Assembly: GCF_003293695.1 (NCBI RefSeq)
Contig: NZ_CP029556.1
Coordinates: 10,001-74,000 of the forward strand
From: Lysobacter oculi
GTDB taxonomy: Bacteria > Pseudomonadota > Gammaproteobacteria > Xanthomonadales > Xanthomonadaceae
DNA length: 64,000 nt
Direction of reading: 5' to 3'
In this document: piece after piece, positions 50,101 to 63,344 of the stretch
Position numbering within the stretch: position 1 is the stretch's first letter
Layout: the number at the start of each line of letters is the position of its first letter
The notes under the pieces: generated by a model
Databases searched by the model: none
The model's input: the letters and a program-made list of their open reading frames with translations, nothing else
What the model was told of the DNA's origin: nothing
Position numbers and translations under genes: made by a program

Positions 50101-50472
50101 ATGCAGATCAGCGAAGCCGAATCGGTGGTGATGGAAATCCTCTGGGCGCGCCACCCGCGCACGTCCGAGGAGGTGGTGGCCGCCCTGGCCGATGCCCAGG
50201 ACTGGCAGGAAGCCACCATCAAGACCCTGCTCAACCGCCTGCTCAACAAGGGCGCGATCAATGCCGAGCGCGATGGCCGCCGCTACCTGTACGCGCCGGT
50301 GCTGCGGCGCGAGGACTGGGTGCTGGAAGAAAGCGGCAGCCTGCTCGACCGCCTGTTCGATGGCCGGGTCGCGCCGCTGGTCGCGCATTTCTCGCAACAC
50401 AAGAAACTGTCGAAGGCCGATGTCGCCGAACTGCGGCGGCTGATCGAGGAGCTGGGCGATGGACGCGACTGA
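50101..50472 (+). CDS. BlaI/MecI/CopY family transcriptional repressor
   Basis: A 123-residue winged-helix repressor: ISEAESVVMEILWARHPRTS, WQEATIKTLLNRLLNKGAI (recognition helix) and a C-terminal dimer helix. It has the BlaI architecture in which a partner M56 protease relieves repression. The leader is short (about 18 nt) and there is no clear Shine-Dalgarno sequence before ATG 50101. The gene overlaps the M56 gene by 14 nt. A beta-lactamase is not present nearby, so the target is probably another envelope or the operon itself. Confidence 0.92.
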   Translation: MQISEAESVVMEILWARHPRTSEEVVAALADAQDWQEATIKTLLNRLLNKGAINAERDGRRYLYAPVLRREDWVLEESGSLLDRLFDGRVAPLVAHFSQHKKLSKADVAELRRLIEELGDGRD

Positions 50473-52480
50473 CCTGCTGTCGAAACTCTGGCTGGCCACC
50501 TGGACCAGCAGCGCGGCGATGCTCGCCGTCTGCCTGCTGCGCGCGCCGGTGCGCCGCCATTTCGGGGCCGGCGCCGCCTACGGGCTGTGGTGGCTGGTGC
50601 CGGCGGCACTCTTGGCCAACCTGTTGCCGGGCCGCACCCGCGTCATCGACCTGCCGACCGTGCTGCAGGCCCCGTCCAGGATCGAGGCCGCGCCCTTCGC
50701 CGCCGTCGATCTGCCGACGGGCTGGGATGTCGAACCGTGGCTGCTCGCCGCGTGGGCGCTGGGTGCGTGCGCATTGGCGGCCTGGTTCCATTGGCAACAG
50801 ACGCGCTTCGAGCGCGGGCTGGGCCGGCTGGAATGCGTCGATGCCGATGCACGGCTGTGGCGTGCCGAACATGCGGCCGGGCTGCCGGCGCTGGTGGGGC
50901 TGTGGCGGCCGGTGATCGTGCTGCCGGCCGACATCGGCGAACGCTTCGATGCCCGCCAGCGCGAGCTGATGGTCCTGCACGAGCGCATCCACCTGCGTCG
51001 TGGCGACGCCTGGATCAATGCCTTCGCCGCGCTGCTCCGCGCCCTGTTCTGGTTCAACCCGCTGGCCCACCTGTGCGCCAGCCGCCTGCGCCACGACCAG
51101 GAGCTGGCCTGCGACGCCCGCATCCTGGCCGCCCAACCCGGCAGCGCGCGGCCCTACGCCGAAGCGATGCTGAAGGCGCAGGCCATCGCCCATCCCTTGC
51201 CCCTCGGTTGTCACTGGGGCGCGACCCATCCCCTGAAGGAACGCATCATGCAGATGACGCAGAAAATGCCCGCCCGCGGCTGGCAACGTGCCGGCGTGGC
51301 GCTGGTCGTGGCCGGTATCGCGGCCACCGGTTTCGCGGCCTGGTCGGCGCAGCCCGAACGCTTCGTGATGGCGCCGGCCAAACAGTCGCAGGCGCAGCCC
51401 CCGGCGGTCGCGGTGATGCCGCGCACGCGCTCGGTGCAGGTCTCGCAGTCATCCGACAGGCCGGCCGACATCGAACTGGCCATACAGCTGCAGGTCGATG
51501 GCGGCAAGCCGAGCGAACTGGTGATCGCCACCGCCGCCAATCAATCCTTCACCGCGACCACCGGCAGCGCCTCGGGCCAACTCACCCTGCAGGGCCGCGT
51601 GGAACCGGTGACTCACCAGGGCCAGCCGGCCTACCGCACTTCGCTGCAGCTGTTCCGCAATGGCACCGCGCAGCCGCTGGCGAACCCGGTGTTGATCGTG
51701 AGTCCGGGCAAGGAGGCGCGCGTGCAGGTGGGTGAGGAAGTACGAGGCGGCGGCTTCAAGGGCATCGACCTGCACCTGCGCGTCGGGCCGTTGAGCGCCG
51801 AAACGCGCGGGGTGATCGATGAAGCCGAAAAGGCCGCGGCCGAAGCCGGACGCGCCGCCGACGAAGCCGCCCGTGACGCCGAGGCCGCCGCCCGCGATGC
51901 CGCCGCCGCCGCGGAGGAAGCCAGCCGCCACGCCGAGCTCGCCGCCGGGCAGGCCGAGCGCGACGCACGGCACGCCGCCGACGAGGCCATGAGCGATGCC
52001 GAACAGGCCGCCCGCGAAGCCGAAGCGCAGGCCCGCGAGGCCGAGCGCGCGGCACGTGATGCGGCCCGCCGTGCCCAGGCCGGCACATCGCTCCACTTCA
52101 ATGTCGTGCCGGCGCCGCCGGTGCCGCCGTCACCGCCGGCCGTGCCGCGCATGCCGGCCCCTGTGCCCGCCGTCGCGCCGCCCGCGTCCCCGTCGCCCCC
52201 GCGTGTCCCCACCATGGCGCGCATGCCCGCGCCCCCCGCGTTGCCCGCGCCGCCGGCCCCGCCGCATGCGGCCGCTTCGGTGGACAGCTACCCGTCCGCG
52301 ATCAAGGCCGGTGGCCGCGCGGCCAGCAGTGCGGAGATCAGCCGCTACAAGCTGGCGAACGGCTACCGCTGGGTGCGTGTCGACGGCATCGCGCGGCCGG
52401 GCCTGCACATCGAAAGCACTGTCTTCGTGATGCCGGACGGCCACGCCAAGGGCCCGATGTTCGCCGGCTTCGATCGCTGA
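50459..52480 (+). CDS. M56 family membrane metallopeptidase (BlaR1-like) with unusual C-terminal part
   Basis: A 673-residue protein. The N-terminal half has membrane helices around the zinc motif HERIH (His174-Glu175, His178) and the downstream SRLRHDQELACDARIL, typical of BlaR1/MecR1. A helix near 280 (GVALVVAGIAATGFAAW) ends the core. The BlaR1 penicillin-binding sensor is absent. Instead there is a beta-rich domain (about 325-445), a long Ala/Glu/Arg helical repeat (about 460-545: AAARDAAAAAEEASRHAE type), a Pro-rich stretch (about 550-605) and a short end domain. It overlaps blaI, and the pair should act as sensor and repressor; the signal is unknown. Confidence 0.88.
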   Translation: MDATDLLSKLWLATWTSSAAMLAVCLLRAPVRRHFGAGAAYGLWWLVPAALLANLLPGRTRVIDLPTVLQAPSRIEAAPFAAVDLPTGWDVEPWLLAAWALGACALAAWFHWQQTRFERGLGRLECVDADARLWRAEHAAGLPALVGLWRPVIVLPADIGERFDARQRELMVLHERIHLRRGDAWINAFAALLRALFWFNPLAHLCASRLRHDQELACDARILAAQPGSARPYAEAMLKAQAIAHPLPLGCHWGATHPLKERIMQMTQKMPARGWQRAGVALVVAGIAATGFAAWSAQPERFVMAPAKQSQAQPPAVAVMPRTRSVQVSQSSDRPADIELAIQLQVDGGKPSELVIATAANQSFTATTGSASGQLTLQGRVEPVTHQGQPAYRTSLQLFRNGTAQPLANPVLIVSPGKEARVQVGEEVRGGGFKGIDLHLRVGPLSAETRGVIDEAEKAAAEAGRAADEAARDAEAAARDAAAAAEEASRHAELAAGQAERDARHAADEAMSDAEQAAREAEAQAREAERAARDAARRAQAGTSLHFNVVPAPPVPPSPPAVPRMPAPVPAVAPPASPSPPRVPTMARMPAPPALPAPPAPPHAAASVDSYPSAIKAGGRAASSAEISRYKLANGYRWVRVDGIARPGLHIESTVFVMPDGHAKGPMFAGFDR

Positions 52481-52498
52481 TCCCGCACGCGACGGCGC

Positions 52499-54457
52499 TC
52501 AGCGAGCGTCGCGCGTGCCCGCCTGCAAGGCCTTCGCCAGCAACCGCGCATACAGGCGCTGCTTGAGGCCGCGCGGCGCATCCAGCCCCATCCGCTTCAT
52601 CGCTTCCTCATCGCGCGTGCCGCCGGCGGTGAACAGCGCGGAAGCCACGGCGCGCAGCTTGCCCACGGGCGTGGCGGTGGCGGACTTCAGCCGCGACAGC
52701 GCCTTGACCAGCCGCTGCTCGACCTCGGTGAAATCGCTGCCGAGCGGATAGTCGGGCAGGGTGCCGTCGGCGCGGAACGGGGCCAGCGCTTCGCGCACCT
52801 GCGCCGCCGTGTTGCGTGACCACGCGTCAGGCGCGCTGAAGCCTTCGTCCAGCTTCAATCCGCGCTTGGCCGCCTCGACCAGTGCCGCCTGGTCGAGGGT
52901 GTCGGCGATGCCGCACATCGCCATCACCACATCCTCGTCCACCTTGCCGCGCACGTCGGCGATGCCGTATTCGGTGATGTAGACGTCGCGCAGGTGGCGC
53001 GCGATGGTGGTGTGGCCGTAGTCCCAGACGATGTTGCCGTTGACCTTGCCAGCGGATTCGCGGGTGGCGCGCAGCATCAGCACGGAGCGGCCGTCGTCGA
53101 GTTCGTGCGCCATCGACACGAAGTTGTACTGACCGCCCACGCCCGAGACGACGCGTCCATCCTCCAGCGCGTCGGAGGTGGCGGCACCGAGCGCGCTGGC
53201 CATCATGCAGGTGTTGAAGAAGCGGCCGTCGCGCCGTTGCAGCCGTTCCAGCGCTTCGTTGTCGCGGCTCAGCGCGTTGATCTCGCCGACCGCGCGCATG
53301 TCGATGCCGCTGGCCGTCGCTTCATCCAGCCCGCGCAGCCAGTCGTAGAACGCCGGCGAACCCAGGTAGAACGCGCCACGCAGGTAGTCGCCGTGTTCCG
53401 CCAGCCGCGCGTGGTCGCCGGCTGACGCGCTGCCCTCGGCGATGCGCTGCATCAGCGGCAGGTCGTCCAGCACCCGGCGCTTCAGCACGCCGCGCTCGGC
53501 CAGCACGCGGAAGCCCTCGTTGATCATCTCGCTGCAGCCGTACAGCCCGTGCTCGAACGGATCGAGCCCGCCCCAGCGCTGCACCAGCGGATGCGTGTCG
53601 ATGCCGGGATCCAGCGCACGCAGCACCGCACGGTATCTGGCGTTGTCGGTGTGGCGCAGCACCAGCGCGTGCGAGAGCGCGTCGGCCAGCGCGCCGATGC
53701 CGATCTGCAGCGTGCCGCCATCGCGCACCAGCGTGCTGGCGTACAGGCCGATGGCGTGGTCGATGTCGCCCACCGGCTGCCGCGGCAGCGCGAACAGCTT
53801 CGGCGGCGATGCCGGTGCTTCCACCACGAGGTCGAAGAAGCCGGCATCGACCAACGCGTGCTGGCCGATCCACGGCAGCATCGGGTCGATCTCCGCCACC
53901 ATCAGCGGCCGAGGCAAGCCGGCGCGCGCCAGCGCCGCGAGCGTGTCGGTGGTGAGGTCGGTGTTGGACGACAGCGACAGCCGCGCATCGCCTTCGCGCG
54001 CGGCCACCCGCTGCACGATGCAGTTGATGCCGCGGTCGGCCAGCGCATCGGCCACCTGGGTGTAGTTGAGGCTGGCGTAGCGGCGTTGTGCCTGCCGCGA
54101 ATGCAGCATGGCGCCGGACTGGAAGTAGAACTCCTCGACCTCGATGTTGGCCGGGAGCGCGTCGCGCCGCATCGCCGACACGTACTTCAGGCGTGGATAG
54201 TCCTGGCCGTAGAGGCGCTCGACGAACGGCGCCAGGAAGCGCTTCTCCAGATCGCTGCCGCCGCCGGGCGGGTCCAGCGACAGCGCGGTGTAGAGATGCA
54301 GGGCGCGCTCGGCATGGGCGGTGCAGTGGTCGTACAACGCGTTGACCAGCCGGTTGGGCTTGCCGAGACCGAGCGGCGTGGCGATGCGGAGCGGGCCTTC
54401 AATGCGCGCCAGCAGCGCGGTGACGGCCTGTTCGAGGGAGAGGAGCGAAGCGTGCAT
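52499..54457 (-). CDS. acetyl-CoA hydrolase/transferase family protein
   Basis: A 652-residue protein of the family that includes acetyl-CoA hydrolase, succinyl-CoA:acetate CoA-transferase and 4-hydroxybutyrate CoA-transferase. Recognisable segments are IATPLGLGKPNRLVNALY, VQRVAAREGDARLSLSSNTD, GTLQIGIGALADALSHAL, VSGVGGQYNFVSMAHELDDG (CoA/glycine loop) and YITEYGIADVRGKVDEDVV. It is longer than typical 500-residue members because of an extra N-terminal part. It starts 25 nt after the ETHE1-like gene on the same strand, so it may be read with the sulfur genes. The exact CoA substrate cannot be told. Confidence 0.88.
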   Translation of the reverse strand: MHASLLSLEQAVTALLARIEGPLRIATPLGLGKPNRLVNALYDHCTAHAERALHLYTALSLDPPGGGSDLEKRFLAPFVERLYGQDYPRLKYVSAMRRDALPANIEVEEFYFQSGAMLHSRQAQRRYASLNYTQVADALADRGINCIVQRVAAREGDARLSLSSNTDLTTDTLAALARAGLPRPLMVAEIDPMLPWIGQHALVDAGFFDLVVEAPASPPKLFALPRQPVGDIDHAIGLYASTLVRDGGTLQIGIGALADALSHALVLRHTDNARYRAVLRALDPGIDTHPLVQRWGGLDPFEHGLYGCSEMINEGFRVLAERGVLKRRVLDDLPLMQRIAEGSASAGDHARLAEHGDYLRGAFYLGSPAFYDWLRGLDEATASGIDMRAVGEINALSRDNEALERLQRRDGRFFNTCMMASALGAATSDALEDGRVVSGVGGQYNFVSMAHELDDGRSVLMLRATRESAGKVNGNIVWDYGHTTIARHLRDVYITEYGIADVRGKVDEDVVMAMCGIADTLDQAALVEAAKRGLKLDEGFSAPDAWSRNTAAQVREALAPFRADGTLPDYPLGSDFTEVEQRLVKALSRLKSATATPVGKLRAVASALFTAGGTRDEEAMKRMGLDAPRGLKQRLYARLLAKALQAGTRDAR

Positions 54458-54482
54458 CCGGCGAGGATACGCGTGCGCACGG

Positions 54483-55355
54483 TCAGAGGGTGTCGAGCGG
54501 GATCCTGAGGAAGCGGGTGCCGTTGGATTCCGGCGCCGGCAACGCGCCGGCGCGGATATTCACCTGCACCGCGGGCAGGATCAGCTTCGGCATGTCGAGC
54601 GTGGCATCGCGGGCTTCGCGCAGGGCGACGAAGTCGGCTTCCGGCGTATCCGCGCGGACGTGGATGTTGGCGCGCTTCTGCTCGCCGATGCGGGTCTCGC
54701 AGGCATGCGCGCGTCCGCCGGGCGCGTAGTCGTGGCAGACGAAGACGCGGGTCGCGTCCGGCAGCGCATAGAGGCGCTGGATCGAGCGGTACAGCGTGGC
54801 CGCATCGCCACCCGGGAAATCGCAGCGCGCGGTGCCGCCGTCGGGCATGAACAGCGAGTCGCCGGTGAACAGTGCATCGCCGATCAGGAAGGCGTTGCTG
54901 TCGCTGGTGTGGCCCGGCACGGCGATGACGCGCGCTTCCAGCCCGCCGATGGCGAAGCGCTCGCCGTCATCGAACAGGTGGTCGAACTGCGAGCCATCCA
55001 CCGCGAAATCGGCGCCCAGGTGGTAGATCGCGCGGAAGGTGTCCTGGACACGGGTGATGCCGCGACCGATGGCGATGCGAGCAGCGGGGAAATGGGCGTG
55101 CTTCAACCAGTGCGCGGCAGAGAGATGGTCGGCGTGGGCGTGGGTTTCCAGCAGCCAGTCCACGCTCAGTGCGTGGGCGGCCACGTAGTCCACGAGCGCC
55201 TGCGCGCTGGCGGTTGAGGTGCGTGCGGCGGCCGCGTCGTAGTCGAGTACCGGGTCGATGATCGCGGCAGCGCAGGTCGCCGGATCGTGCACCACGTAGC
55301 TCCAGGTGCTGCTGTCGGCGTGGAGGAAAGGCTGGACGTGCGGCTGCTGATCCAT
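54483..55355 (-). CDS. metallo-beta-lactamase fold protein, ETHE1/Blh-like persulfide dioxygenase
   Basis: Likely oxidises glutathione persulfide to sulfite. The 290-residue protein has the metal site ETHAHADHLSAA (HxHxDH), VPGHTSDSN, and TGDSLFMPDGGTARCDFPGGD, whose arginine/cysteine region matches the ETHE1/Blh glutathione-persulfide pattern, plus VCHDYAPGG. In Xylella the homologue Blh is fused to other domains and lies beside BigR; here it is a single domain next to a BigR-like gene (25 nt downstream of it). Periplasmic signals are absent. Confidence 0.9.
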   Translation of the reverse strand: MDQQPHVQPFLHADSSTWSYVVHDPATCAAAIIDPVLDYDAAAARTSTASAQALVDYVAAHALSVDWLLETHAHADHLSAAHWLKHAHFPAARIAIGRGITRVQDTFRAIYHLGADFAVDGSQFDHLFDDGERFAIGGLEARVIAVPGHTSDSNAFLIGDALFTGDSLFMPDGGTARCDFPGGDAATLYRSIQRLYALPDATRVFVCHDYAPGGRAHACETRIGEQKRANIHVRADTPEADFVALREARDATLDMPKLILPAVQVNIRAGALPAPESNGTRFLRIPLDTL

Positions 55356-55380
55356 CGATCGATGCCTCGTGCAGGCCTGC

Positions 55381-55707
55381 TCAGCAGGCGGGCGCTGGGC
55401 CGCAGTAGATCCCGTGCAGGGTCGCCAGGATCTGCTGCGCCGGACCTTCGGCCAGTGCGTAGTAGATGGTCTGCGCCTCGCGGCGGGTGGTGACCAGGCC
55501 TTCGTCGCGCAGCACGGCCAGGTGCTGGGAAAGCGCCGATTGGCTCAGGTCGACCCGGGCGTTGAGTTCGCCCACCGAGCATTCGCCTTCCACCAGCTGG
55601 CACAGCAGCAGCAGGCGCTTCTCGTTGGCCAGCGCCTTCAGCACGCGGCTGGCATCGGCGGCGTGCAGGCGCATCGCTTCGCCATCCATCGGCAGGGCCA
55701 CGCTCAT
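55381..55707 (-). CDS. bigR: BigR-type ArsR repressor, sulfide/persulfide sensor
   Basis: A 108-residue winged-helix repressor. Aligning by eye with BigR (C42/C108 in Xylella), Cys36 in RLLLLCQLVEGE and Cys102 in HGIYCGPAPAC match the redox pair, with the same 66-residue spacing; two more cysteines (43 and 108) are present. In BigR/SqrR such cysteines form a tetrasulfide or disulfide bridge that releases DNA. The recognition helix is DLSQSALSQHLAVLRDEGL. Its ATG overlaps the rhodanese stop by 4 nt. Its probable operator is at 56139-56164. Confidence 0.9.
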   Translation of the reverse strand: MSVALPMDGEAMRLHAADASRVLKALANEKRLLLLCQLVEGECSVGELNARVDLSQSALSQHLAVLRDEGLVTTRREAQTIYYALAEGPAQQILATLHGIYCGPAPAC

Positions 55708-56099
55708 CGCGTGACCACCGGGAGCCCGGCTTCGCGCCAGGCCTCGATGCCACCGGCGATCGAGCGGACATCGGCGAAGCCCAGCTTCTGCAGGTTGTCG
55801 GCGGCGAGTGCCGCGCGGCCACCGGTGCGGCAATACAGCACCAGCGGACGTTCGCGATGTGCCAGCGCCGGGTCGGTCGCGTTGGCCACGGCCGGGTGCG
55901 CATCGACCTGGAATTCCAGCACGCCACGCGGGATGTTGATCGCGCCGGGCAGGTGGCCGGTGTCGAACTCGGCGGGCTCGCGCACATCGATCAGCACGGC
56001 ATCGCCGGCATTGGCGTGGAAGGCCGCCGGGGCGACTTCTCGGATGCGCTGGCGGGCATCGGCCACCAGATCGAAAGCGGTCAGGGCAGGCATCGGCAT
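55704..56099 (-). CDS. rhodanese domain protein
   Basis: A 131-residue single rhodanese domain with active-site loop YCRTGGRAA (Cys90 carries the persulfide) and DVREPAEFDTGHLPGAINIP. It transfers sulfane sulfur between thiols. Two start codons are possible, ATG 56099 and ATG 56093; the GAGAGGA ribosome binding site is better spaced for 56093. First gene of the minus-strand arm; overlaps bigR by 4 nt. Confidence 0.92.
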   Translation of the reverse strand: MPMPALTAFDLVADARQRIREVAPAAFHANAGDAVLIDVREPAEFDTGHLPGAINIPRGVLEFQVDAHPAVANATDPALAHRERPLVLYCRTGGRAALAADNLQKLGFADVRSIAGGIEAWREAGLPVVTR

Positions 56100-56120
56100 G
56101 TCCTCTCGGTACGGAAGGCC

Positions 56121-56164
56121 AGAATATCACTTGACACTAATATAAGAAATAGCTAATTTATATT
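56121..56164. promoter_or_regulatory. divergent promoter region with AT-rich palindrome (probable BigR operator)
   Basis: On the plus strand TTGACA (56131-56136) and TAATTT (56154-56159) are 17 bp apart and face the sulfide:quinone oxidoreductase gene. A 26-bp imperfect palindrome AATATAA-N12-TTATATT (56139-56164) covers the spacer and -10. On the minus strand TATTCT (56126-56121) may be a -10 for the rhodanese-bigR arm. The palindrome is far more AT-rich than its surroundings, as known BigR boxes are. Confidence 0.7.
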
Positions 56165-56188
56165 CACTTCAAGTTTGGCGAGGGTGCC

Positions 56189-57478
56189 ATGGCCAGGATC
56201 GTGGTGATGGGGGCGGGACTCGGTGGCATGAGCGCGGCCTACGAGGCCCGCGACGTGCTCGGCAAGGACCATGAGGTGGTGCTGGTCGGCAAGGGGCCGA
56301 CGTTCGGCTTCACCCCGTCGAATCCGTGGCTGGCGGTGGGCTGGCGACAACCTTCCGAGGTCACCTTGCCGGTCGCGGAACACGTCGGCCGGCATGGCAT
56401 CCGCTTCGTGCCCGAGGGCGTGGACACGATCGACGCAGCCAACGATGCCATCGTCACCGGCGCGGGCGAACGCATCGCCTACGACTACCTGGTCATCGCC
56501 ACCGGCCCGCGGTTGGCTTTCGAGGAGGTGCCGGGCACCGGTCCGGAAGGCGGCCACACGCAGTCGGTCTGCACCACCGCGCATGCCGCGCACGCCTGGG
56601 ACGCGTACCAGAAGTTCCTCGAGAATCCGGGCCCGGTCGTGATCGGCGCGGTGCAGGGCGCGAGCTGCTTCGGCCCGGCCTACGAGTTCGCGATGATCGT
56701 CGATGCCGACCTGCGCCGGCGAAAGCTGCGCGACCGGGTGCCGATGACCTTCGTCACCAGCGAGCCCTACATCGGCCACATGGGCCTGGGCGGCGTCGGC
56801 GACTCGAAGGGCCTGATGGAGTCGGAACTGCGACAGCGCCACATCCGCTGGATCGACAACAGCAAGGTGACCGAAGTCCGCGAAGGCGAGATGGACGTGC
56901 TGCCGCACGACGCCAAGGGCCAGCCGCTGGAGGCGCAGGACGTGCCGTTCAAGTTCGCGATGCTGCTGCCGGCGTTCAAGGGCGTGGATGCGGTGGCCGC
57001 GGTGGACGGGCTGAACAACCCGCGTGGCTTCGTGATCGTGGACCGGCACCAGCGCAGCCCGAGGTACCCGAAGATCTTCGCCGCCGGCGTGTGCGTGGCG
57101 ATCCCGCCGGTGGAGGCGACACCGATCCCGACCGGCGCGCCCAAGACCGGCTTCATGATCGAATCGATGGTGACCACGATCGTGCGCAACATCGCCGCCG
57201 AACTGAAGGGCGAGACCCCCGACTACGAAGGCACCTGGAACGCAGTCTGCCTGGCCGACATGGGCGACACCGGCGCCGCCTTCGTCGCGCTGCCGCAGAT
57301 CCCGCCGCGCAACGTCACCTGGACCAAGATCGGGCGCTGGGTGCACCTGGCCAAGATCGGCTTCGAGAAGTACTTCCTCTACAAGATGCGCCACGGCACG
57401 TCGGAACCGATCTACGAGAAATACATCCTCGGCCTGCTCGGCATCGAGCGGCTGAAGGACGTCAAGCGTTCGTCCTGA
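56189..57478 (+). CDS. sqr: sulfide:quinone oxidoreductase
   Basis: FAD enzyme that oxidises sulfide to polysulfide or persulfide and passes electrons to quinone. The 429-residue protein has the FAD loop VVMGAGLGGMSAAYE and three cysteines at 128 (SVCTTAHA), 160 (GASCFGPAYE) and 354 (NAVCLADMGD), the same pattern as Acidithiobacillus SQR (128, 160, 356). PTGAPKTGFMIESM near the C terminus is the quinone/FAD segment, and the C-terminal amphipathic helices (WVHLAKIGFEKYF) suit monotopic membrane attachment. GAGGGTG ribosome binding site lies before ATG 56189. Regulated from the divergent BigR-type region. Confidence 0.93.
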   Translation: MARIVVMGAGLGGMSAAYEARDVLGKDHEVVLVGKGPTFGFTPSNPWLAVGWRQPSEVTLPVAEHVGRHGIRFVPEGVDTIDAANDAIVTGAGERIAYDYLVIATGPRLAFEEVPGTGPEGGHTQSVCTTAHAAHAWDAYQKFLENPGPVVIGAVQGASCFGPAYEFAMIVDADLRRRKLRDRVPMTFVTSEPYIGHMGLGGVGDSKGLMESELRQRHIRWIDNSKVTEVREGEMDVLPHDAKGQPLEAQDVPFKFAMLLPAFKGVDAVAAVDGLNNPRGFVIVDRHQRSPRYPKIFAAGVCVAIPPVEATPIPTGAPKTGFMIESMVTTIVRNIAAELKGETPDYEGTWNAVCLADMGDTGAAFVALPQIPPRNVTWTKIGRWVHLAKIGFEKYFLYKMRHGTSEPIYEKYILGLLGIERLKDVKRSS

Positions 57479-57509
57479 ATCCCTTCAACCACTTCAACGG
57501 AGAACTTCC

Positions 57510-57722
57510 ATGACCCTCGACCGTGCCGTGCAGGCCTTTGCCGGCGTGATGGTGCTTGTCAGCCTCGCGCTCACGAAATTCGTCCACCCCGGCTTCTTCT
57601 GGTTGACCGCCTTCGTCGGCTTCAACCTGTTCCAGTCCGCGTTCACCGGCTTCTGCCCGGCGGCGATGGTGATGCGCAAGCTCGGCATCGGCCGGGGCGA
57701 TGCCGCGTCCTGCAGCCGCTGA
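57510..57722 (+). CDS. DUF2892 small membrane protein
   Basis: A 70-residue protein with two membrane helices (AFAGVMVLVSLALTKFV and FFWLTAFVGFNLFQSAF), the FCPAAMVMRKLG segment typical of DUF2892, and C-terminal SCSR. Such proteins accompany rhodaneses and SQR and form the membrane part of YgaP-type rhodaneses. It follows sqr by 31 nt with a GGAG ribosome binding site. Role unknown; possibly it helps move sulfur species at the membrane. Confidence 0.85.
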   Translation: MTLDRAVQAFAGVMVLVSLALTKFVHPGFFWLTAFVGFNLFQSAFTGFCPAAMVMRKLGIGRGDAASCSR

Positions 57723-57732
57723 CGGACGGACC

Positions 57733-58830
57733 ATGCACCTCGCAAAGATGCTGCTGGCGGGCGCGATGACCGCGCTGCTGCTCACCGCCTGCGCCGACGC
57801 CCCGGCACCCGATGCCACGCCGGCGCTGCCGAAGGATTTCGCCACCTTCACCGTCGAAGCCGGCGGCGCGATACCGGGTCGTGGTTGGGAGGGCGTGGTC
57901 GAATCGGTGCGCCGCGCCGACCTGGCCGCGCAGACCGCCGGCCGCGTCACCGCGGTGAACGTGGATGTCGATGACCGCGTGGCCGCCGGGCAGGTGCTGC
58001 TGCGGATCAGCGCGGTGGAACAGCAGGCCGGCGCGAATACCGCGCGGGCGCAGCTGCGTGCCGCCGAGGCCGCCGCCGCCGAGGCCGAACAGACCTGGCG
58101 CCGCTACGCCGCGCTGGGCGGCGGGCAATACGTGTCGAGGCAGCAGGTCGACCAGGCCCGCGCCGCCCGCGATGCCGCCGCCGCCGCCCGCGACGCGGCC
58201 CGCGCGCAGGTGGCGCAGGCCGCGCAGCAGGCGGATTACACCGTGGTGCGCGCGCCTTTCGCGGGCGTGGTGGCGCGGCGCGACGTGGAACCCGGCGAGA
58301 CCATCGCGCCCGGCATGCCGCTGCTGAGCGTGTACGCGCCCGGCGAGCTGCGCATCGAGGTCGCCGTGCCGCAGACGCGCGCCGAGGCGATCCGTCGCGA
58401 TCCGCGCGCCCGCGTGCGCCTGGGCGACGGGCGCGAGGTGGTGCCGGCCGGCGTGGTGGTGTTTCCCGCCGCCGACCCGCTCAGCCACAGCGTCAACGTG
58501 CGCGTCACCTTGCCGGACCTGGCCCCCGTGCCGGCGCCCGGCACCACCGCCAAGGTGGTGTTCGATGCCGATGCGGTGCAGGACGACAACGACCAGCCGC
58601 CGCGTGCCGTGCGCATCCCGGTAGATGCCCTCGTGCAGCGCGGCGAGCTGAGCGGCGTCTACGTGGTGCGGGACGGTCGCCTGCTGCTGCGGCAGCTGCG
58701 GCTGGGGGCGGCGCGCGCCGGACATGTCGAAGTGATCGCGGGCCTGGACGCGGGGGATGTGGTCGCGCGCGATCCGGTCGCGGCCACACGCGCCATCGCC
58801 GCGCAGCGGCAGGCGGCGGCATCGAAATGA
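57733..58830 (+). CDS. RND efflux periplasmic adaptor (membrane fusion) lipoprotein
   Basis: A 365-residue adaptor of an RND pump. It has a lipoprotein signal (lipobox LLTAC), a lipoyl half-motif (LAAQTAGRVTAVNVDVDDRV), an Ala-rich coiled coil (AAAAEAEQTWRRYAAL), the second lipoyl half (APFAGVVARRDVEPGETI) and a beta-barrel domain. ATG 57733 follows the DUF2892 stop by 10 nt; its end overlaps the permease by 4 nt. No outer-membrane channel gene is nearby, so it would use a TolC-type channel encoded elsewhere. Confidence 0.93.
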   Translation: MHLAKMLLAGAMTALLLTACADAPAPDATPALPKDFATFTVEAGGAIPGRGWEGVVESVRRADLAAQTAGRVTAVNVDVDDRVAAGQVLLRISAVEQQAGANTARAQLRAAEAAAAEAEQTWRRYAALGGGQYVSRQQVDQARAARDAAAAARDAARAQVAQAAQQADYTVVRAPFAGVVARRDVEPGETIAPGMPLLSVYAPGELRIEVAVPQTRAEAIRRDPRARVRLGDGREVVPAGVVVFPAADPLSHSVNVRVTLPDLAPVPAPGTTAKVVFDADAVQDDNDQPPRAVRIPVDALVQRGELSGVYVVRDGRLLLRQLRLGAARAGHVEVIAGLDAGDVVARDPVAATRAIAAQRQAAASK

Positions 58831-61800
58831 GTGCGGCGCGCTTCGGCATTTCAGGGCGACTGGCGGCCGCGTTCCAGTCCAATCCGCTGACGCCCATCCT
58901 CGCGATCGTCGGCCTGCTGCTCGGGCTGGCCGCGGTGATGGTCACCCCGCGTGAGGAAGAGCCGCAGATCGACGTGACCATGGCCAACGTCATCGTGCCG
59001 TTCCAGGGCGCGGGTGCGCGCGACGTCGAGCAGTGGGTCGCCACGCCGCTGGAGCAGAAGCTCGCCGAGATCGAAGGCGTCAAGCACGTGTACTCGGTGA
59101 GTCGCCCCGGCGTGGCGGTGATGACGGTGGAGTTCGAGGTCGGGATCGCGCGGCAGCCGGCGCTGGTGCGGCTCTACAACCAGGTGTTCTCCAACCAGGA
59201 CTGGATGCCGGCCAACGTCGGCGTCGGCCCGGCCATCGTCAAGCCCAAGGGTATCGATGACGTACCGGTGATGGCGCTGACCTTGTGGAGCGACGATGCC
59301 GATGTCGATGCCACGGCGCTCGCGGAAGTCGCGCACACGCTGGAGGCCGAGCTCAAGCGCATCCCGGGCACCCGCGACATCTACACCCTCGGCGCGCCCG
59401 AGCGCGTGGTGTCGGTGACGCTGGATGCCGCCGCGCTGTCCGCCTATGGCCTGGCTGCCGGCGAGTTGGCGCAGGCGCTGCAGGCGGCCAACGTGGTGCG
59501 GCAGCCGGGCGAGCGCATCGATGCGGCCGCCGGCGCGGTGCCGGTGACGGCCGGCGCTTTCCTGGCCAGTGCCGATGACGTGGCAGGTCTGGTCATCGGC
59601 AGCCGCGACGGCAAGCCGCTGCTGCTGTCGGATGTCGCGAAGATCGAATCGCGCGGCGACATCGCCCGCCAGTACGCCTGGCATGGCGCACCGCCCGGTC
59701 GCGCGGGCCCGAAGGCCGGCATCGCGCCGGCGGTGACGCTGGCCATCGCCAAGAAGCCCGGCAGCAACGCCGACGACATCACCCGCGCGGTAAGCGCGCG
59801 CATCCAACAGTTGCGCGGCGAGCTGATCCCCGACGCCGTGCAGGTGACGGTCACCCGCGACTACGGCGCCACCGCCAGCGACAAGGCGCAGAAGCTGATC
59901 CAGAAGCTGGTGTTCGCCACCGCCAGCGTGGTGCTGCTGGTGCTGTTTGCGCTGGGCTGGCGAGAGGCGATCGTGGTCGGCAGCGCGGTGGTGCTGACGC
60001 TCGCGGTGACGCTGTTCGCTTCGCGCGTCATGGGCTTCACCCTCAACCGCGTGTCGCTGTTCGCGCTGATCTTCTCGATCGGCATCCTGGTTGATGACGC
60101 CATCGTGGTGGTGGAGAACATCCATCGCCACATGGCGCGCGGAGGCAAGTCGCTGCGCGAGGCGATCCCGCCGGCGGTCGATGAGGTCGGCGGGCCGACC
60201 ATCCTCGCCACCTTCACCGTGATCGCCGCGCTGATGCCGATGGCCTTCGTGTCCGGGCTGATGGGCCCGTACATGCGCCCGATCCCGATCAACGCGTCGG
60301 TCGGCATGCTGCTGTCGCTGGCCATCGCGCTGATCGTCACGCCCTGGCTGTCGCTGAAGCTGCTCGCGCGCCACGGTCACGCGGACAGTGGTGCACCCGG
60401 CCATGACACCGAAGCGCGGCAGGCCGGGTGGCTGCACCGGCTGTTCGAACGGGTGATGTCGCTCTTCCTGGTCGGTGCGCGCGCGGGCCGCAGGCGCACG
60501 CTGCTGTTTGCTTCGATGGCGCTGCTGGTGCTGCTGGCGGCATCGCTCGCGTTGTTCAAGTGGGTCGTGCTGAAGATGCTGCCGTTCGACAACAAGTCGG
60601 AAGTGCAGGTGGTGGTCGACATGCCCGAAGGCAGCACGCTGGAGCGGACCAACGCCCTGCTGGCCGAACTCGCGGCCCAGGTCGATGGCGTACCGGAAGT
60701 CCTCGACTACCAGGGCTATGCGGGCACCGCCGCGCCGATCAATTTCAACGGGCTGGTGCGACAGTACTTCCTGCGCAGCGGCAACAACGTCGGCGACCTG
60801 CAGGTGAACCTGGTCGACAAGCACGTGCGCACGCGCCAGAGCCACGAGATCGCGCGCGCCATGCGCCCGATGCTGGCGGCAACGGGCGCCAGGTACGGCG
60901 CATCGGTCAAGGTGGTGGAAGTGCCGCCTGGCCCGCCCGTGCTCTCGCCGCTGGTGGCCGAAGTGTACGGACCGGACTACGCCGGACAGCGTCGCATCGC
61001 GCGTGCACTGGCGAAGACGCGTTTCGCGACCACCGACGGCATCGTCGATCTCGATACCAGCGTCGAAACGGACGCGCCGCGTGAACGGATCGTGGTGGAT
61101 CGCGAACGCGCCGCGCGTCTCGGCGTGGCGCAGGCGGCCATCGCCGATGCGTTGGCGATGGGCGTGTCGGGGCTGGATGCGGGCTTCGTCCACGATGGCG
61201 CATCGAAATATCCGCGGCCGATCCGCCTGCGGCTGCCGGCGCAGGACCAGGCGGCCATCGCTTCGCTGCTCGCGCTCAAGGTGCGTGGCGCGCAGGGCCA
61301 GCTGGTGCCGTTGTCGGAACTGGTGCGGGTGGACAAGACGCGCTGGGACGGCGCCATCCACCACAAGGACGGCCTGCCGGTCGTCTACGTCACCGCCGAC
61401 GAGGCCGGTCGGCTCGACAGCCCGCTGTACGGCATGTTCGACATCGTCGGCCAACTGCGCGACCACGCGGTCGATGGCCAGACGCTGGGTCAGACCTTCA
61501 TCGCCCAGCCCGCCGACACACGCGGCTACGCGGTGAAGTGGGATGGCGAGTGGCAGATCACCTACGAGACCTTCCGCGACATGGGCATCGCCTACGCCGT
61601 GGGCATGGTGCTGATCTACTTGCTGGTGGTGGCGCAGTTCCGCGACTACGTGGTGCCGCTGGTGATCATGGCGCCGATCCCGCTGACCGTGATCGGCGTG
61701 ATGCCGGGCCATGCGCTGCTCGGCGCTCAGTTCACCGCGACCAGCATGATCGGGATGATCGCGCTGGCCGGCATCATCGTGCGCAATTCCATTTTGCTGG

Positions 61801-62090
61801 TGGATTTCATCCGCGAGGAGATCGCGCGCGGCGTGCCGGTGGTCGAGGCGGTGATCGATGCCTGCGCGGTGCGCGCCAAGCCGATCGTGTTGACCGGGGT
61901 AGCCGCGATGATGGGCGCGTTTTTCATCCTCGACGACCCGATCTTCAACGGGCTGGCGATTTCGCTGATCTTCGGCATCCTGGTCAGCACGCTGCTGACG
62001 CTGGTGGTCATCCCGCTGCTGTACTTTGTGCTGCTTTCACGGCGTGCCGCCCAAGCTCGTGGGGTTGCCGCCACTGGAGCATCCACATGA
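58827..62090 (+). CDS. RND family efflux permease
   Basis: A 1087-residue inner-membrane proton antiporter of the AcrB/HAE type. Twelve hydrophobic helices are suggested, with the proton-relay pair in GILVDDAIVVVENIH and large periplasmic loops (PREEEPQIDVTMANVIVPF after helix 1). The C-terminal half has TATSMIGMIALAGIIVRNS with RNSILLVDF. It overlaps the adaptor by 4 nt and the thioredoxin gene by 4 nt. Substrates cannot be read from sequence; placement in a sulfur operon is the only clue. Confidence 0.94.
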   Translation: MSAARFGISGRLAAAFQSNPLTPILAIVGLLLGLAAVMVTPREEEPQIDVTMANVIVPFQGAGARDVEQWVATPLEQKLAEIEGVKHVYSVSRPGVAVMTVEFEVGIARQPALVRLYNQVFSNQDWMPANVGVGPAIVKPKGIDDVPVMALTLWSDDADVDATALAEVAHTLEAELKRIPGTRDIYTLGAPERVVSVTLDAAALSAYGLAAGELAQALQAANVVRQPGERIDAAAGAVPVTAGAFLASADDVAGLVIGSRDGKPLLLSDVAKIESRGDIARQYAWHGAPPGRAGPKAGIAPAVTLAIAKKPGSNADDITRAVSARIQQLRGELIPDAVQVTVTRDYGATASDKAQKLIQKLVFATASVVLLVLFALGWREAIVVGSAVVLTLAVTLFASRVMGFTLNRVSLFALIFSIGILVDDAIVVVENIHRHMARGGKSLREAIPPAVDEVGGPTILATFTVIAALMPMAFVSGLMGPYMRPIPINASVGMLLSLAIALIVTPWLSLKLLARHGHADSGAPGHDTEARQAGWLHRLFERVMSLFLVGARAGRRRTLLFASMALLVLLAASLALFKWVVLKMLPFDNKSEVQVVVDMPEGSTLERTNALLAELAAQVDGVPEVLDYQGYAGTAAPINFNGLVRQYFLRSGNNVGDLQVNLVDKHVRTRQSHEIARAMRPMLAATGARYGASVKVVEVPPGPPVLSPLVAEVYGPDYAGQRRIARALAKTRFATTDGIVDLDTSVETDAPRERIVVDRERAARLGVAQAAIADALAMGVSGLDAGFVHDGASKYPRPIRLRLPAQDQAAIASLLALKVRGAQGQLVPLSELVRVDKTRWDGAIHHKDGLPVVYVTADEAGRLDSPLYGMFDIVGQLRDHAVDGQTLGQTFIAQPADTRGYAVKWDGEWQITYETFRDMGIAYAVGMVLIYLLVVAQFRDYVVPLVIMAPIPLTVIGVMPGHALLGAQFTATSMIGMIALAGIIVRNSILLVDFIREEIARGVPVVEAVIDACAVRAKPIVLTGVAAMMGAFFILDDPIFNGLAISLIFGILVSTLLTLVVIPLLYFVLLSRRAAQARGVAATGAST

Positions 62091-62521
62091 GCGAATCGAT
62101 GATCGTTGCCTGTCCGTCCTGCCACGGCCTCAACCGCGTGCCGCAGGCCCGCCTGGGCGATGCGCCGACCTGCGGCAAATGTGGCCGGGCGTTGTTCGAT
62201 GCGCACCCGCTGGGGCTGGACGAGGCCGGCTTCCATGCGCACGTCGAGCGCGCCACGCTGCCCGTGCTGGTGGATTTCTGGGCGCCATGGTGCGGGCCGT
62301 GCCGGATGATGGCGCCGCAGTTCGAGGCCGCCGCCGCGCAGCTGGAGCCACGCATGCGCCTGGCGAAGGTGGATACCGAGGCGCAGCCGGCGCTCGGCGC
62401 GCGTTTCGGCATCCGCAGCATTCCCACGCTGGTGCTGTTCTCGGCGGGCCGCGAGGTGGCCCGTCAGGCCGGCGCGATGTCCGCGCCCGACATCGTGCGC
62501 TGGGCGCGCCGGCACGCCTGA
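62087..62521 (+). CDS. trxC: thioredoxin 2 (TrxC-like, zinc-ribbon)
   Basis: A 144-residue thioredoxin with an N-terminal zinc ribbon (CPSC at 9-12 and CGKC at 29-32) and the active site WCGPC (Cys69, Cys72), followed by cis-Pro loop RSIPTLVLF. TrxC proteins are cytosolic, zinc-sensing and induced by oxidative stress. ATG 62087 overlaps the RND permease stop by 4 nt (ATGA). Here it ends the sqr arm, suggesting a role in reducing persulfides or polysulfides formed by SQR (inference). Confidence 0.94.
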   Translation: MSESMIVACPSCHGLNRVPQARLGDAPTCGKCGRALFDAHPLGLDEAGFHAHVERATLPVLVDFWAPWCGPCRMMAPQFEAAAAQLEPRMRLAKVDTEAQPALGARFGIRSIPTLVLFSAGREVARQAGAMSAPDIVRWARRHA

Positions 62522-62525
62522 CCGG

Positions 62526-63344
62526 TCAGCGCGCCAGCGCGGCGTTGAGCAGCTCGGCCAGGTGCGCGCCCCCGCGGCGCAGCTGCGCTTCCGCGATCGG
62601 CGTCCACTGGACGAAGTAGTCCCGGTCGAGCTTCGGCGTTGATGGGTAGAAGCCCGGCTGCAGCACGATGGCGCAGGCATCCTCGGCCCATTCGCCGGCG
62701 GCGGGCGGCAGGGGCGTGCGCTGCATCGGCACCACCAGCGGCATACTTTGCAGGCGCTCGAGGTAGCGGTCGTCGGAGAGGCGCTGGGCAAACAGCATCC
62801 GGCCATCCCATACCGCGTGCAGGTTGGTGCCGAAGCCGGCATCGTTGACCTGGGTATCGTTGCCGCCGCGGTCGCGGGCGTAGCCGCCATGCAGCGGCTG
62901 GTGCACGTCGCCGGTGAAATGCACGACGAACTTCAGCGCGTCGCGTCGCGCGGCCAGTGATTGGCGGCGGTCGGCGAGGATCGCAGTCTGGCGGCGGATC
63001 GCTTCGACCACGCAGTCGTCGCCGCGGCAGTCACGCGCCGCCTGGTAGCGGCAGCCGTGTTCGCCGATGTTGACGAAGTGCCAGCGCGCGGTGCGCTTGA
63101 ACAACGGCGGATCGGTGTCGCGCAGGTCGTCGGCCCAGTTGGCGATGCCGGCCAGCGTGGGATCGGGTTCGCCGGCCAGCAGCTTCGCCACTTCGGCACG
63201 GGCGGCGGGGGTGAGTTCGGCATCGGCCAGTCGCGCGACCAGCCGGTGGCCCTGCGCACCCCAGCCGAACGCGGGCAGCGCGACCAGCGCGAGCAGCAGC
63301 ACGAAGCCACATCGCGCACGGAACAGGAATGAAGAAAGGGCCAT
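62526..63344 (-). CDS. S1/P1 family nuclease
   Basis: A zinc-dependent single-strand nuclease/phosphatase. The 272-residue precursor has a signal peptide (FVLLLALVALPAFG) followed by mature N-terminal Trp (WGAQGHR), whose backbone binds zinc in this family. Other ligand motifs: NWADDLRD, WHFVNIG, HFTGDVHQPLH, RGGND and NLHAVWD. It converges on trxC with 4 bp between the stop codons. Secreted or periplasmic. Specificity cannot be predicted. Confidence 0.93.
   Translation of the reverse strand: MALSSFLFRARCGFVLLLALVALPAFGWGAQGHRLVARLADAELTPAARAEVAKLLAGEPDPTLAGIANWADDLRDTDPPLFKRTARWHFVNIGEHGCRYQAARDCRGDDCVVEAIRRQTAILADRRQSLAARRDALKFVVHFTGDVHQPLHGGYARDRGGNDTQVNDAGFGTNLHAVWDGRMLFAQRLSDDRYLERLQSMPLVVPMQRTPLPPAAGEWAEDACAIVLQPGFYPSTPKLDRDYFVQWTPIAEAQLRRGGAHLAELLNAALAR

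Follow-up and report, generated by a model that had tools for sequence, protein, structure and literature searches.

A probable BigR/SqrR-type reactive-sulfur module with an RND pump and TrxC in Lysobacter oculi: predicted operator and conserved linkage

Introduction

The steps of sulfide detoxification as far as sulfite are well charted, but to our knowledge the exit route of excess sulfane sulfur from Gram-negative cells is open. The window analysed here, which comprises bases 10001-74000 (64,000 nucleotides, nt) of the single-contig 2.59-Mb genome of Lysobacter oculi, carries a divergent module of nine genes. Its minus arm encodes a rhodanese, a BigR-type ArsR repressor, a persulfide dioxygenase (PDO) and an acetyl-CoA hydrolase-like protein, while its plus arm encodes a sulfide:quinone oxidoreductase (SQR), a DUF2892 protein, the adaptor and permease of an RND pump, and TrxC. 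We give a probability of about 0.65 to the reading that the whole module is a reactive-sulfur response unit under one local BigR/SqrR-type switch.

Several described systems share parts of this module, and the comparisons with them refer to the accessible portions of the cited texts. The bigR operons of Xylella and Agrobacterium also combine BigR with a rhodanese-type sulfurtransferase and an ETHE1-type dioxygenase, and the repressor acts on the -10 region, which Xylella BigR recognises in its own operon (PMC5823870). They differ in Blh, which is a DUF442-ETHE1 fusion, and in a TauE-like exporter (PMC5823870), whereas in the window rhodanese and PDO are separate and SQR, DUF2892, an RND pump and TrxC are added. 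The SqrR regulon of Rhodobacter capsulatus likewise has a dithiol ArsR repressor with sulfide-responsive sqr, rhodanese and trxC genes, and TrxC resets SqrR, but sqr and trxC are chromosomally separate there, and the accessible text names no pump (PMC10044876, PMC9995734); in the window trxC is within the module, as is a pump. In ygaVP of E. coli, a BigR homologue stands with a rhodanese protein (PMC9774250), and the DUF2892 protein of the window belongs to the YgaP transmembrane family (PF11127); the window differs in having the rhodanese and transmembrane parts as separate genes in opposite arms, and in its pump, since the accessible text on ygaVP mentions none.

An operon of Azospira suillum PS described in 2017 (Dsui_3440-3443) contains SQR, an RND permease, an adaptor and an unknown gene, was highly expressed in sulfide oxidation and was flagged by transposon fitness (PMC5358917). 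SQR, RND permease and adaptor share one operon there as in the window, but no BigR, DUF2892 or TrxC is reported in it in the accessible text, and the two pumps are likened by description, not as orthologs. A DUF2892 gene elsewhere in the Azospira genome was about 10-fold up under sulfide-oxidising conditions (PMC5358917). Besides, a 2025 survey lists RND efflux pumps among the genes near dithiol ArsR regulators of the SqrR/BigR/sHdrR type (PMC12423496), so RND genes by dithiol regulators are common to the survey and the window, while the operator, gene order, TrxC and counts come from the present analysis. The arrangement, which the first-pass annotation of the locus had taken as unfamiliar, is thus partly in print (PMC5358917, PMC12423496). 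The module is a variant of the BigR/SqrR reactive-sulfur response, and what is new here is its wide conservation, its shared operator and a proposed built-in reset.

Results

Layout, operator and repressor

The first-pass annotation had placed nine genes in two divergent arms, with overlaps or short gaps at the junctions and a BigR-type regulator among them. Open frames, Pfam and NCBIfam bore this out, and all nine genes are real at the coordinates of Table 1. The starts of the rhodanese and SQR genes are separated by a spacer of 89 nt. Three junctions (rhodanese/BigR, adaptor/permease and permease/TrxC) are 4-nt overlaps, and the rest are gaps of 10-31 nt (BigR-PDO 25 nt, PDO-hydrolase 25 nt, SQR-DUF2892 31 nt and DUF2892-adaptor 10 nt). 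An alternative start of the adaptor is possible at 57700.

To describe the operator, we trained a palindromic model on the spacers of 19 divergent loci, with the nearest relatives of the window excluded (L027 and L029 among the 19 are still Lysobacteraceae by name), and obtained CTAAnTTAG-N6-CTAAnTTAG. Its match in the divergent spacer of the window (Table 1) is overlapped by a second, weaker dyad at 56122-56145 (11.4 bits), and the best non-overlapping match elsewhere in the window scores 3.0 bits. In a held-out test all 15 spacers, the window's included, were matched, and for none of them did more than one of 300 shuffles score as high; the shuffles were single-base, and the held-out loci were related to one another. 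The site stands before SQR in 7 of these loci, before DUF2892 in 5 and before the adaptor in 3, and in loci without SQR an operator-like site still stands before the pump genes. This persistence beside the pump genes is the main argument for BigR control of the pump, which is very probable as far as sequence can tell. An operator-related string taken from the window has one mismatch-free occurrence in the genome, and the reversed control has 2 matches at up to 3 mismatches. The half-site CTAAATTAG occurs also in a HlyU operator probe (PMC10509353). An exact inverted repeat, AATATAA-N12-TTATATT, had been the first candidate operator and was dropped in favour of the conserved dyad.

A simple scan listed no sigma-70-like promoter in 52400-62700, and the weak promoter-like pair at 56131 (Table 1) was also missed by it. 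There is no sign of a separate promoter before 57733, where the gap is 10 nt, the sigma-70-like scan is empty and no second operator-model site was found; a promoter inside SQR or DUF2892 is possible.

The repressor belongs to the winged-helix ArsR family (NF033788, 93.7 bits against a cut-off of 55), and on the BigR equivalog model NF040642 it scores 102.8 bits against a cut-off of 155. Since the latter score is below the cut-off, the repressor is placed in the BigR subfamily yet not filed as BigR proper. Its best solved relatives in PDB are HlyU, 6o8k-o (chains that we take to be SqrR), XfBigR (3pqj) and YgaV (3cuo), and its C36 and C102 align with the cysteines of HlyU that form the alpha2/alpha5 pair. 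The BigR-type regulator of the first-pass annotation is thus a repressor of the HlyU/SqrR/BigR/YgaV group with the cysteine pair present. In the alignment, both cysteines are kept in 44 of 53 regulators linked to a related pump.

Conservation of the linkage

For the family of the window, 119 genomes were searched for the pump at E <= 1e-200, and it was found in 46 of them, at 47 places once split matches were joined. Upstream of the pump, 43 of the 47 places have a BigR-type gene within 8 kb, divergent every time, and 31 of the places have SQR. Among the four exceptions, one genome has no regulator (SQR is upstream there), two have the regulator on another contig, and one has it far off on the same contig. 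Almost all family genomes with the module-type SQR also have the pump (31 of 32); both genes occur in 31 genomes, SQR only in 1, the pump only in 15 and neither in 72 (Fisher p 4e-16, with genomes treated as independent). The BigR-pump linkage is far above chance. In 20 of 30 family loci, the window's among them, trxC comes after the pump in the same direction and no more than 1.5 kb away; the 29 loci other than the window's were seen with only about 1.5 kb of flank each. By these counts the linkage proposed in the first-pass annotation is conserved. Thermomonas and further Lysobacteraceae are among the nearest relatives of the pump, and we take the family searched to be Lysobacteraceae.

Beyond the family, 99 pumps were compared (the best 80 of at least 593 collection matches, 18 fetched because linked, and that of the window), of which 53 are BigR-linked. 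A BigR-type gene lies within 8 kb in 34 of the best 80 collection loci. The tree places the window in a clade of 35 pump rows, 30 of them BigR-linked (a count that includes the window and two rows chosen for their linkage). Of its five unlinked rows, four come from contigs that stop within the module, and one, Tistlia (L026), truly lacks the linkage. Other gammaproteobacterial pumps, several of them from named sulfur oxidisers, are mostly unlinked to BigR. DUF2892 is near 49 of the 53 BigR-linked pumps versus 7 of the 46 others, while SQR is near only 31 of the 53, so we take repressor, DUF2892 and pump as the core with SQR as an optional part. Such a core with optional SQR suggests a general protection against reactive sulfur.

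In a sample of the phylum, the pump was found at E <= 1e-200 in 156 of 398 genomes. A distant set was made of 36 listed places with a pump 43-47% identical, in genomes with completeness 100 and contamination 0; one is in the class of the window and 35 are in another class, presumably the alphaproteobacteria. A BigR-type gene (E <= 1e-12) lies within 8 kb at 24 of the 36. In 15 distant loci, which were fetched because linked, the module partners differ in order, and trxC stands 3-21 bp after sqr in 6 of them. Partners that recur in varying order point to a set kept together by function and not to an operon frozen in place. The neighbourhood of pump and TrxC could also be without function, co-transcribed by history only, and the gaps, order and neighbours do vary among relatives. 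However, the recurrence of these partners in differing order across two classes argues for selection, as does the same operator before different first genes, and we consider this explanation very unlikely.

BigR-linked pumps are also seen in Alcaligenaceae (Castellaniella; L037 and L039). In clinical Achromobacter isolates, recurrent bigR mutations are reported as associated with antibiotic resistance in the accessible text (PMC8269239). A different neighbourhood is found in the gammaproteobacteria L049, L051, L062, L069, L079, L083 and L084, where the related pump is followed, judged by eye, by a LysR-type regulator, a small protein and an AI-2E-type membrane protein in place of the BigR module.

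Proteins of the module

The features are collected in Table 1. The SQR is a full-length member of its type; C128, C160 and C354, which we take to be its redox cysteines, all align with cysteines of 3sz0, whose source organism is presumably Acidithiobacillus ferrooxidans. PDO matches the solved relatives 9g8t, 4ysk and ETHE1 (4chl), and its HAHADH has the form HxHxDH. It corresponds to the C-terminal part of Blh (NF040641 positions 139-423, 381.6 bits, cut-off 625) and is not the fusion protein. The GFCP motif of the DUF2892 protein recurs as G[FY]CP in 76 of 82 DUF2892 copies near the pump. TrxC has both the zinc ribbon and WCGPC, and among the TrxC copies near the pump WCGPC is present in 38 of 39 and a double CxxC in 39 of 39. 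The acetyl-CoA hydrolase-like gene adjoins PDO also in L016 and L029, and lies about 3 kb from PDO in L022.

Table 1. Features of the divergent module in the window (positions in the window)
Feature	Position	Strand	Evidence
Acetyl-CoA hydrolase/transferase-like protein, 652 aa, last in the minus arm	52499..54457	-	PF13336 102.7 bits
Persulfide dioxygenase (PDO), ETHE1/SDO family	54483..55355	-	PF00753 MBL domain, NF040641, PDB matches, HAHADH motif
BigR/SqrR/HlyU-type ArsR repressor, 108 aa, presumed sensing C36 and C102	55381..55707	-	NF033788, NF040642, PDB relatives
Single-domain rhodanese, active loop CRTGGR	55704..56099	-	PF00581 78.4 bits; separate gene from PDO
Promoter-like pair TTGACA-N17-TAATTT, perfect -35, -10 matching 3/6	56131..56159	+	Below the promoter-scan threshold
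Predicted BigR operator TAATATAAG-N6-CTAATTTAT over the -10 region	56138..56161	.	Operator model, 25.0 bits
Sulfide:quinone oxidoreductase (SQR), Acidithiobacillus ferrooxidans type	56189..57478	+	3sz0 E 1.5e-162, residues 2-424
DUF2892 / YgaP-like transmembrane protein, GFCP motif	57510..57722	+	PF11127 51.5 bits
RND periplasmic adaptor, lipoprotein-type signal LTAC by eye	57733..58830	+	TIGR01730 181.2 bits, over cut-off
RND permease, HAE-like	58827..62090	+	PF00873 494 bits; DD 423-424, R986
TrxC (thioredoxin-2), N-terminal zinc ribbon	62087..62521	+	NF008229 143 bits vs cut-off 125; PF21352; scanned from 62093

Class and possible cargo of the pump

The permease is of HAE type, with the PF00873 domain and the DD relay pair. 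The pair D423-D424, aligned with the DD of 8zxs, and R986, presumably at the usual relay lysine site of RND permeases, are invariant in 99 of 99 pumps. The best NCBIfam multidrug RND model is NF033617 (454.9 bits against a cut-off of 1250), and no NCBIfam cut-off is reached by the permease; because the multidrug cut-off is not attained, it is regarded as a divergent member and given the name of no known pump. It is also below the cut-off of the HME (metal) model TIGR00914 (241.4 against 701 bits). A cysteine-based pump mechanism was rejected, as the permease has a single cysteine (1013) and no alignment column has cysteine in more than 25 of 99 pumps. Among the 99 aligned pumps only three weak positions (52, 383 and 761) mark the BigR-linked ones, and they give no hint of substrate. 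The module has no outer-membrane channel gene; such genes are elsewhere in the genome.

Export of metals, or of metal-sulfide complexes formed under sulfide stress, was proposed by the Azospira authors for their own pump (PMC5358917). The second-best NCBIfam model of the adaptor is CzcB/NccB metal efflux (116 bits, cut-off 319), which agrees with it, but the permease has 455 bits on the multidrug subfamily against 241 on CusA/CzcA (cut-off 701). Besides, the relay motif is VDDA in 99 of 99 pumps, which we take not to be the HME form, and metal cargo appears quite unlikely for the window.

It is possible, and we hold it tentatively, that the pair is a general drug or solvent pump for which reactive sulfur is the induction signal. 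The permease scores highest on multidrug models, though below their cut-offs, and a 2026 review reports sulfane sulfur de-repressing antibiotic efflux pumps and lists the MexR work of Xuan 2020 (PMC12918742). A broad pump, however, need not stay by DUF2892 and sulfur enzymes, and here DUF2892 accompanies the linked pumps (49 of 53) far more often than the others (7 of 46).

The pump may instead export sulfane sulfur itself out of the cell, either S0 or long polysulfide that comes from SQR in the membrane, or a low-molecular-weight persulfide. Its conserved linkage with SQR, BigR and DUF2892 is in line with such a cargo, and so is the HAE-like permease, HAE-type RND permeases being those for amphiphilic or hydrophobic cargo. 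According to the Azospira paper, the sulfur from SQR leaves as S8 or polysulfide, and intracellular and extracellular globules had been observed in Azospira (PMC5358917). This reading is doubtful in our view, as no RND pump with such a substrate was found in the literature search, 22 of the 53 linked pumps have no SQR nearby, and several named sulfur-oxidising gammaproteobacteria have pumps that are not BigR-linked. In its strongest form, which we consider unlikely, the RND pair would be dedicated to sulfane sulfur as cargo, be it S8, polysulfide or a thiol persulfide. This would be a new substrate class for RND pumps, and the pump would close a circuit of sensor, enzymes, pump and reset kept in two classes. 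No published account of the whole module or of the pump's substrate was found in a search that covered main texts, with few subscription papers among them.

Neighbouring genes

On the plus-arm side, a convergent gene at 62526-63344, S1/P1-nuclease-like by eye, stops 4 nt past trxC. On the other side, 50101-52480 of the window adjoins the module and encodes, by eye, a BlaI-like regulator and then an M56/BlaR1-like membrane peptidase that contains a long alanine-rich segment.

Further genes are seen near the pumps of relatives, outside the module of the window. OsmC-like genes (PF02566, verified on L030) and carboxymuconolactone-decarboxylase-like genes (PF02627, verified on L016) occur in L012, L022, L030, L045 and others, downstream and sometimes between pump and trxC. 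The close relatives L010 (14018-15394), L012, L013 and L014 encode a second, distant FAD-dependent oxidoreductase with about 25% identity to SQR, downstream of the pump or of trxC. Cytochrome bd genes stand near the pump in L009, L013, L019, L045 and L064 (cydA of L013 was verified by Pfam), yet cytochrome bd was discarded as a part of the module, the genome of the window having no cydA match.

Discussion

Gene content and order, the conserved linkage, the operator-like site and the cysteine pair are read directly from the DNA, and for the sensing chemistry, the enzyme activities, the TrxC reset and the split-YgaP reading we infer by analogy with the described systems how the module would work. 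In the resting state, the reduced repressor would sit on 56138-56161 and keep the plus arm off, and probably the minus arm too. With sulfide, persulfides would increase, a sulfur bridge would form between C36 and C102, and the repressor would leave the DNA; XfBigR comes off DNA in the presence of glutathione persulfide (GSSH) or H2S, and its operon responds to polysulfide by activation (PMC5823870). SQR would then oxidise sulfide, and rhodanese and PDO would carry sulfane sulfur on to sulfite, while DUF2892 may be the membrane half of a split YgaP. The RND pump, with a presumed TolC-type channel encoded elsewhere, would clear from the membrane or periplasm what we can only guess to be a toxic compound that arises as a by-product under sulfide or sulfane-sulfur stress. 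Encoded by a gene that overlaps the end of the permease gene, TrxC would reduce the bridged repressor and so turn the module off.

The role of TrxC had been seen in the first-pass annotation as the reduction of persulfide products. In R. capsulatus, trxC is 22-fold up with sulfide and 21.6-fold up without SqrR, TrxC reduces the polysulfide bridge of SqrR, and a trxC mutant keeps sqr on longer (PMC10044876). Because TrxC is SqrR-controlled there and reduces polysulfidated SqrR, a reset of the repressor would explain TrxC better than the reduction of exported products. The idea that the RND pump replaces a TauE-type exporter did not hold either. Such an exporter is not among the nine genes by Pfam, unlike in the Xylella/Agrobacterium operon, but the genome keeps its sole TauE match outside the module (G000:C1:1901281), and in L018 a TauE gene adjoins PDO, with the BigR-linked pump of that locus about 6-7 kb away.

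Several observations weigh against a single reactive-sulfur unit under one BigR/SqrR-type switch. No BigR-type gene is near 46 of the 99 compared pumps, some of them on contigs that end early, and the pump family therefore exists outside the module too. Among the distant places, 12 of 36 lack such a regulator (one has a weaker ArsR match and 11 have none; G405 was searched to 1e-15), and SQR is missing near the 22 linked pumps mentioned above. By NCBIfam, the regulator is under the BigR cut-off and PDO is under the Blh cut-off. PDO was not seen by the repressor in the near relatives L009, L010 and L012, so the minus arm is variable. Two terminator-like sites were found in the region, where 3.2 are expected by chance, and one of them, at 62002-62018, falls close to the permease gene's end and thus ahead of trxC. 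Deletion of the whole SQR-RND operon in Azospira left the sulfide oxidation rate unchanged (PMC5358917), so the pump is not required there for oxidation itself. Finally, the cysteine of the C102 column is missing in 8 of the 15 fetched distant regulators.

These eight are the regulators of L148, L150, L152, L155, L156, L157, L160 and L162, and 7 of them have a cysteine four residues earlier, of the LCDIY type. This position may represent another sensing geometry in distant pump-linked regulators.

In conclusion, a pump whose neighbours in two classes of the phylum include SQR, DUF2892 and a sensor of the persulfide type is a strong and directly testable candidate for the exit of sulfane sulfur. 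The operon ends with a homologue of the protein known to reset such a sensor, and this placement predicts a built-in off-switch with measurable timing. If the pump does export sulfane sulfur, the sensor, the persulfide-making and persulfide-burning enzymes, the pump and the resetting thioredoxin would be encoded as one self-contained circuit.

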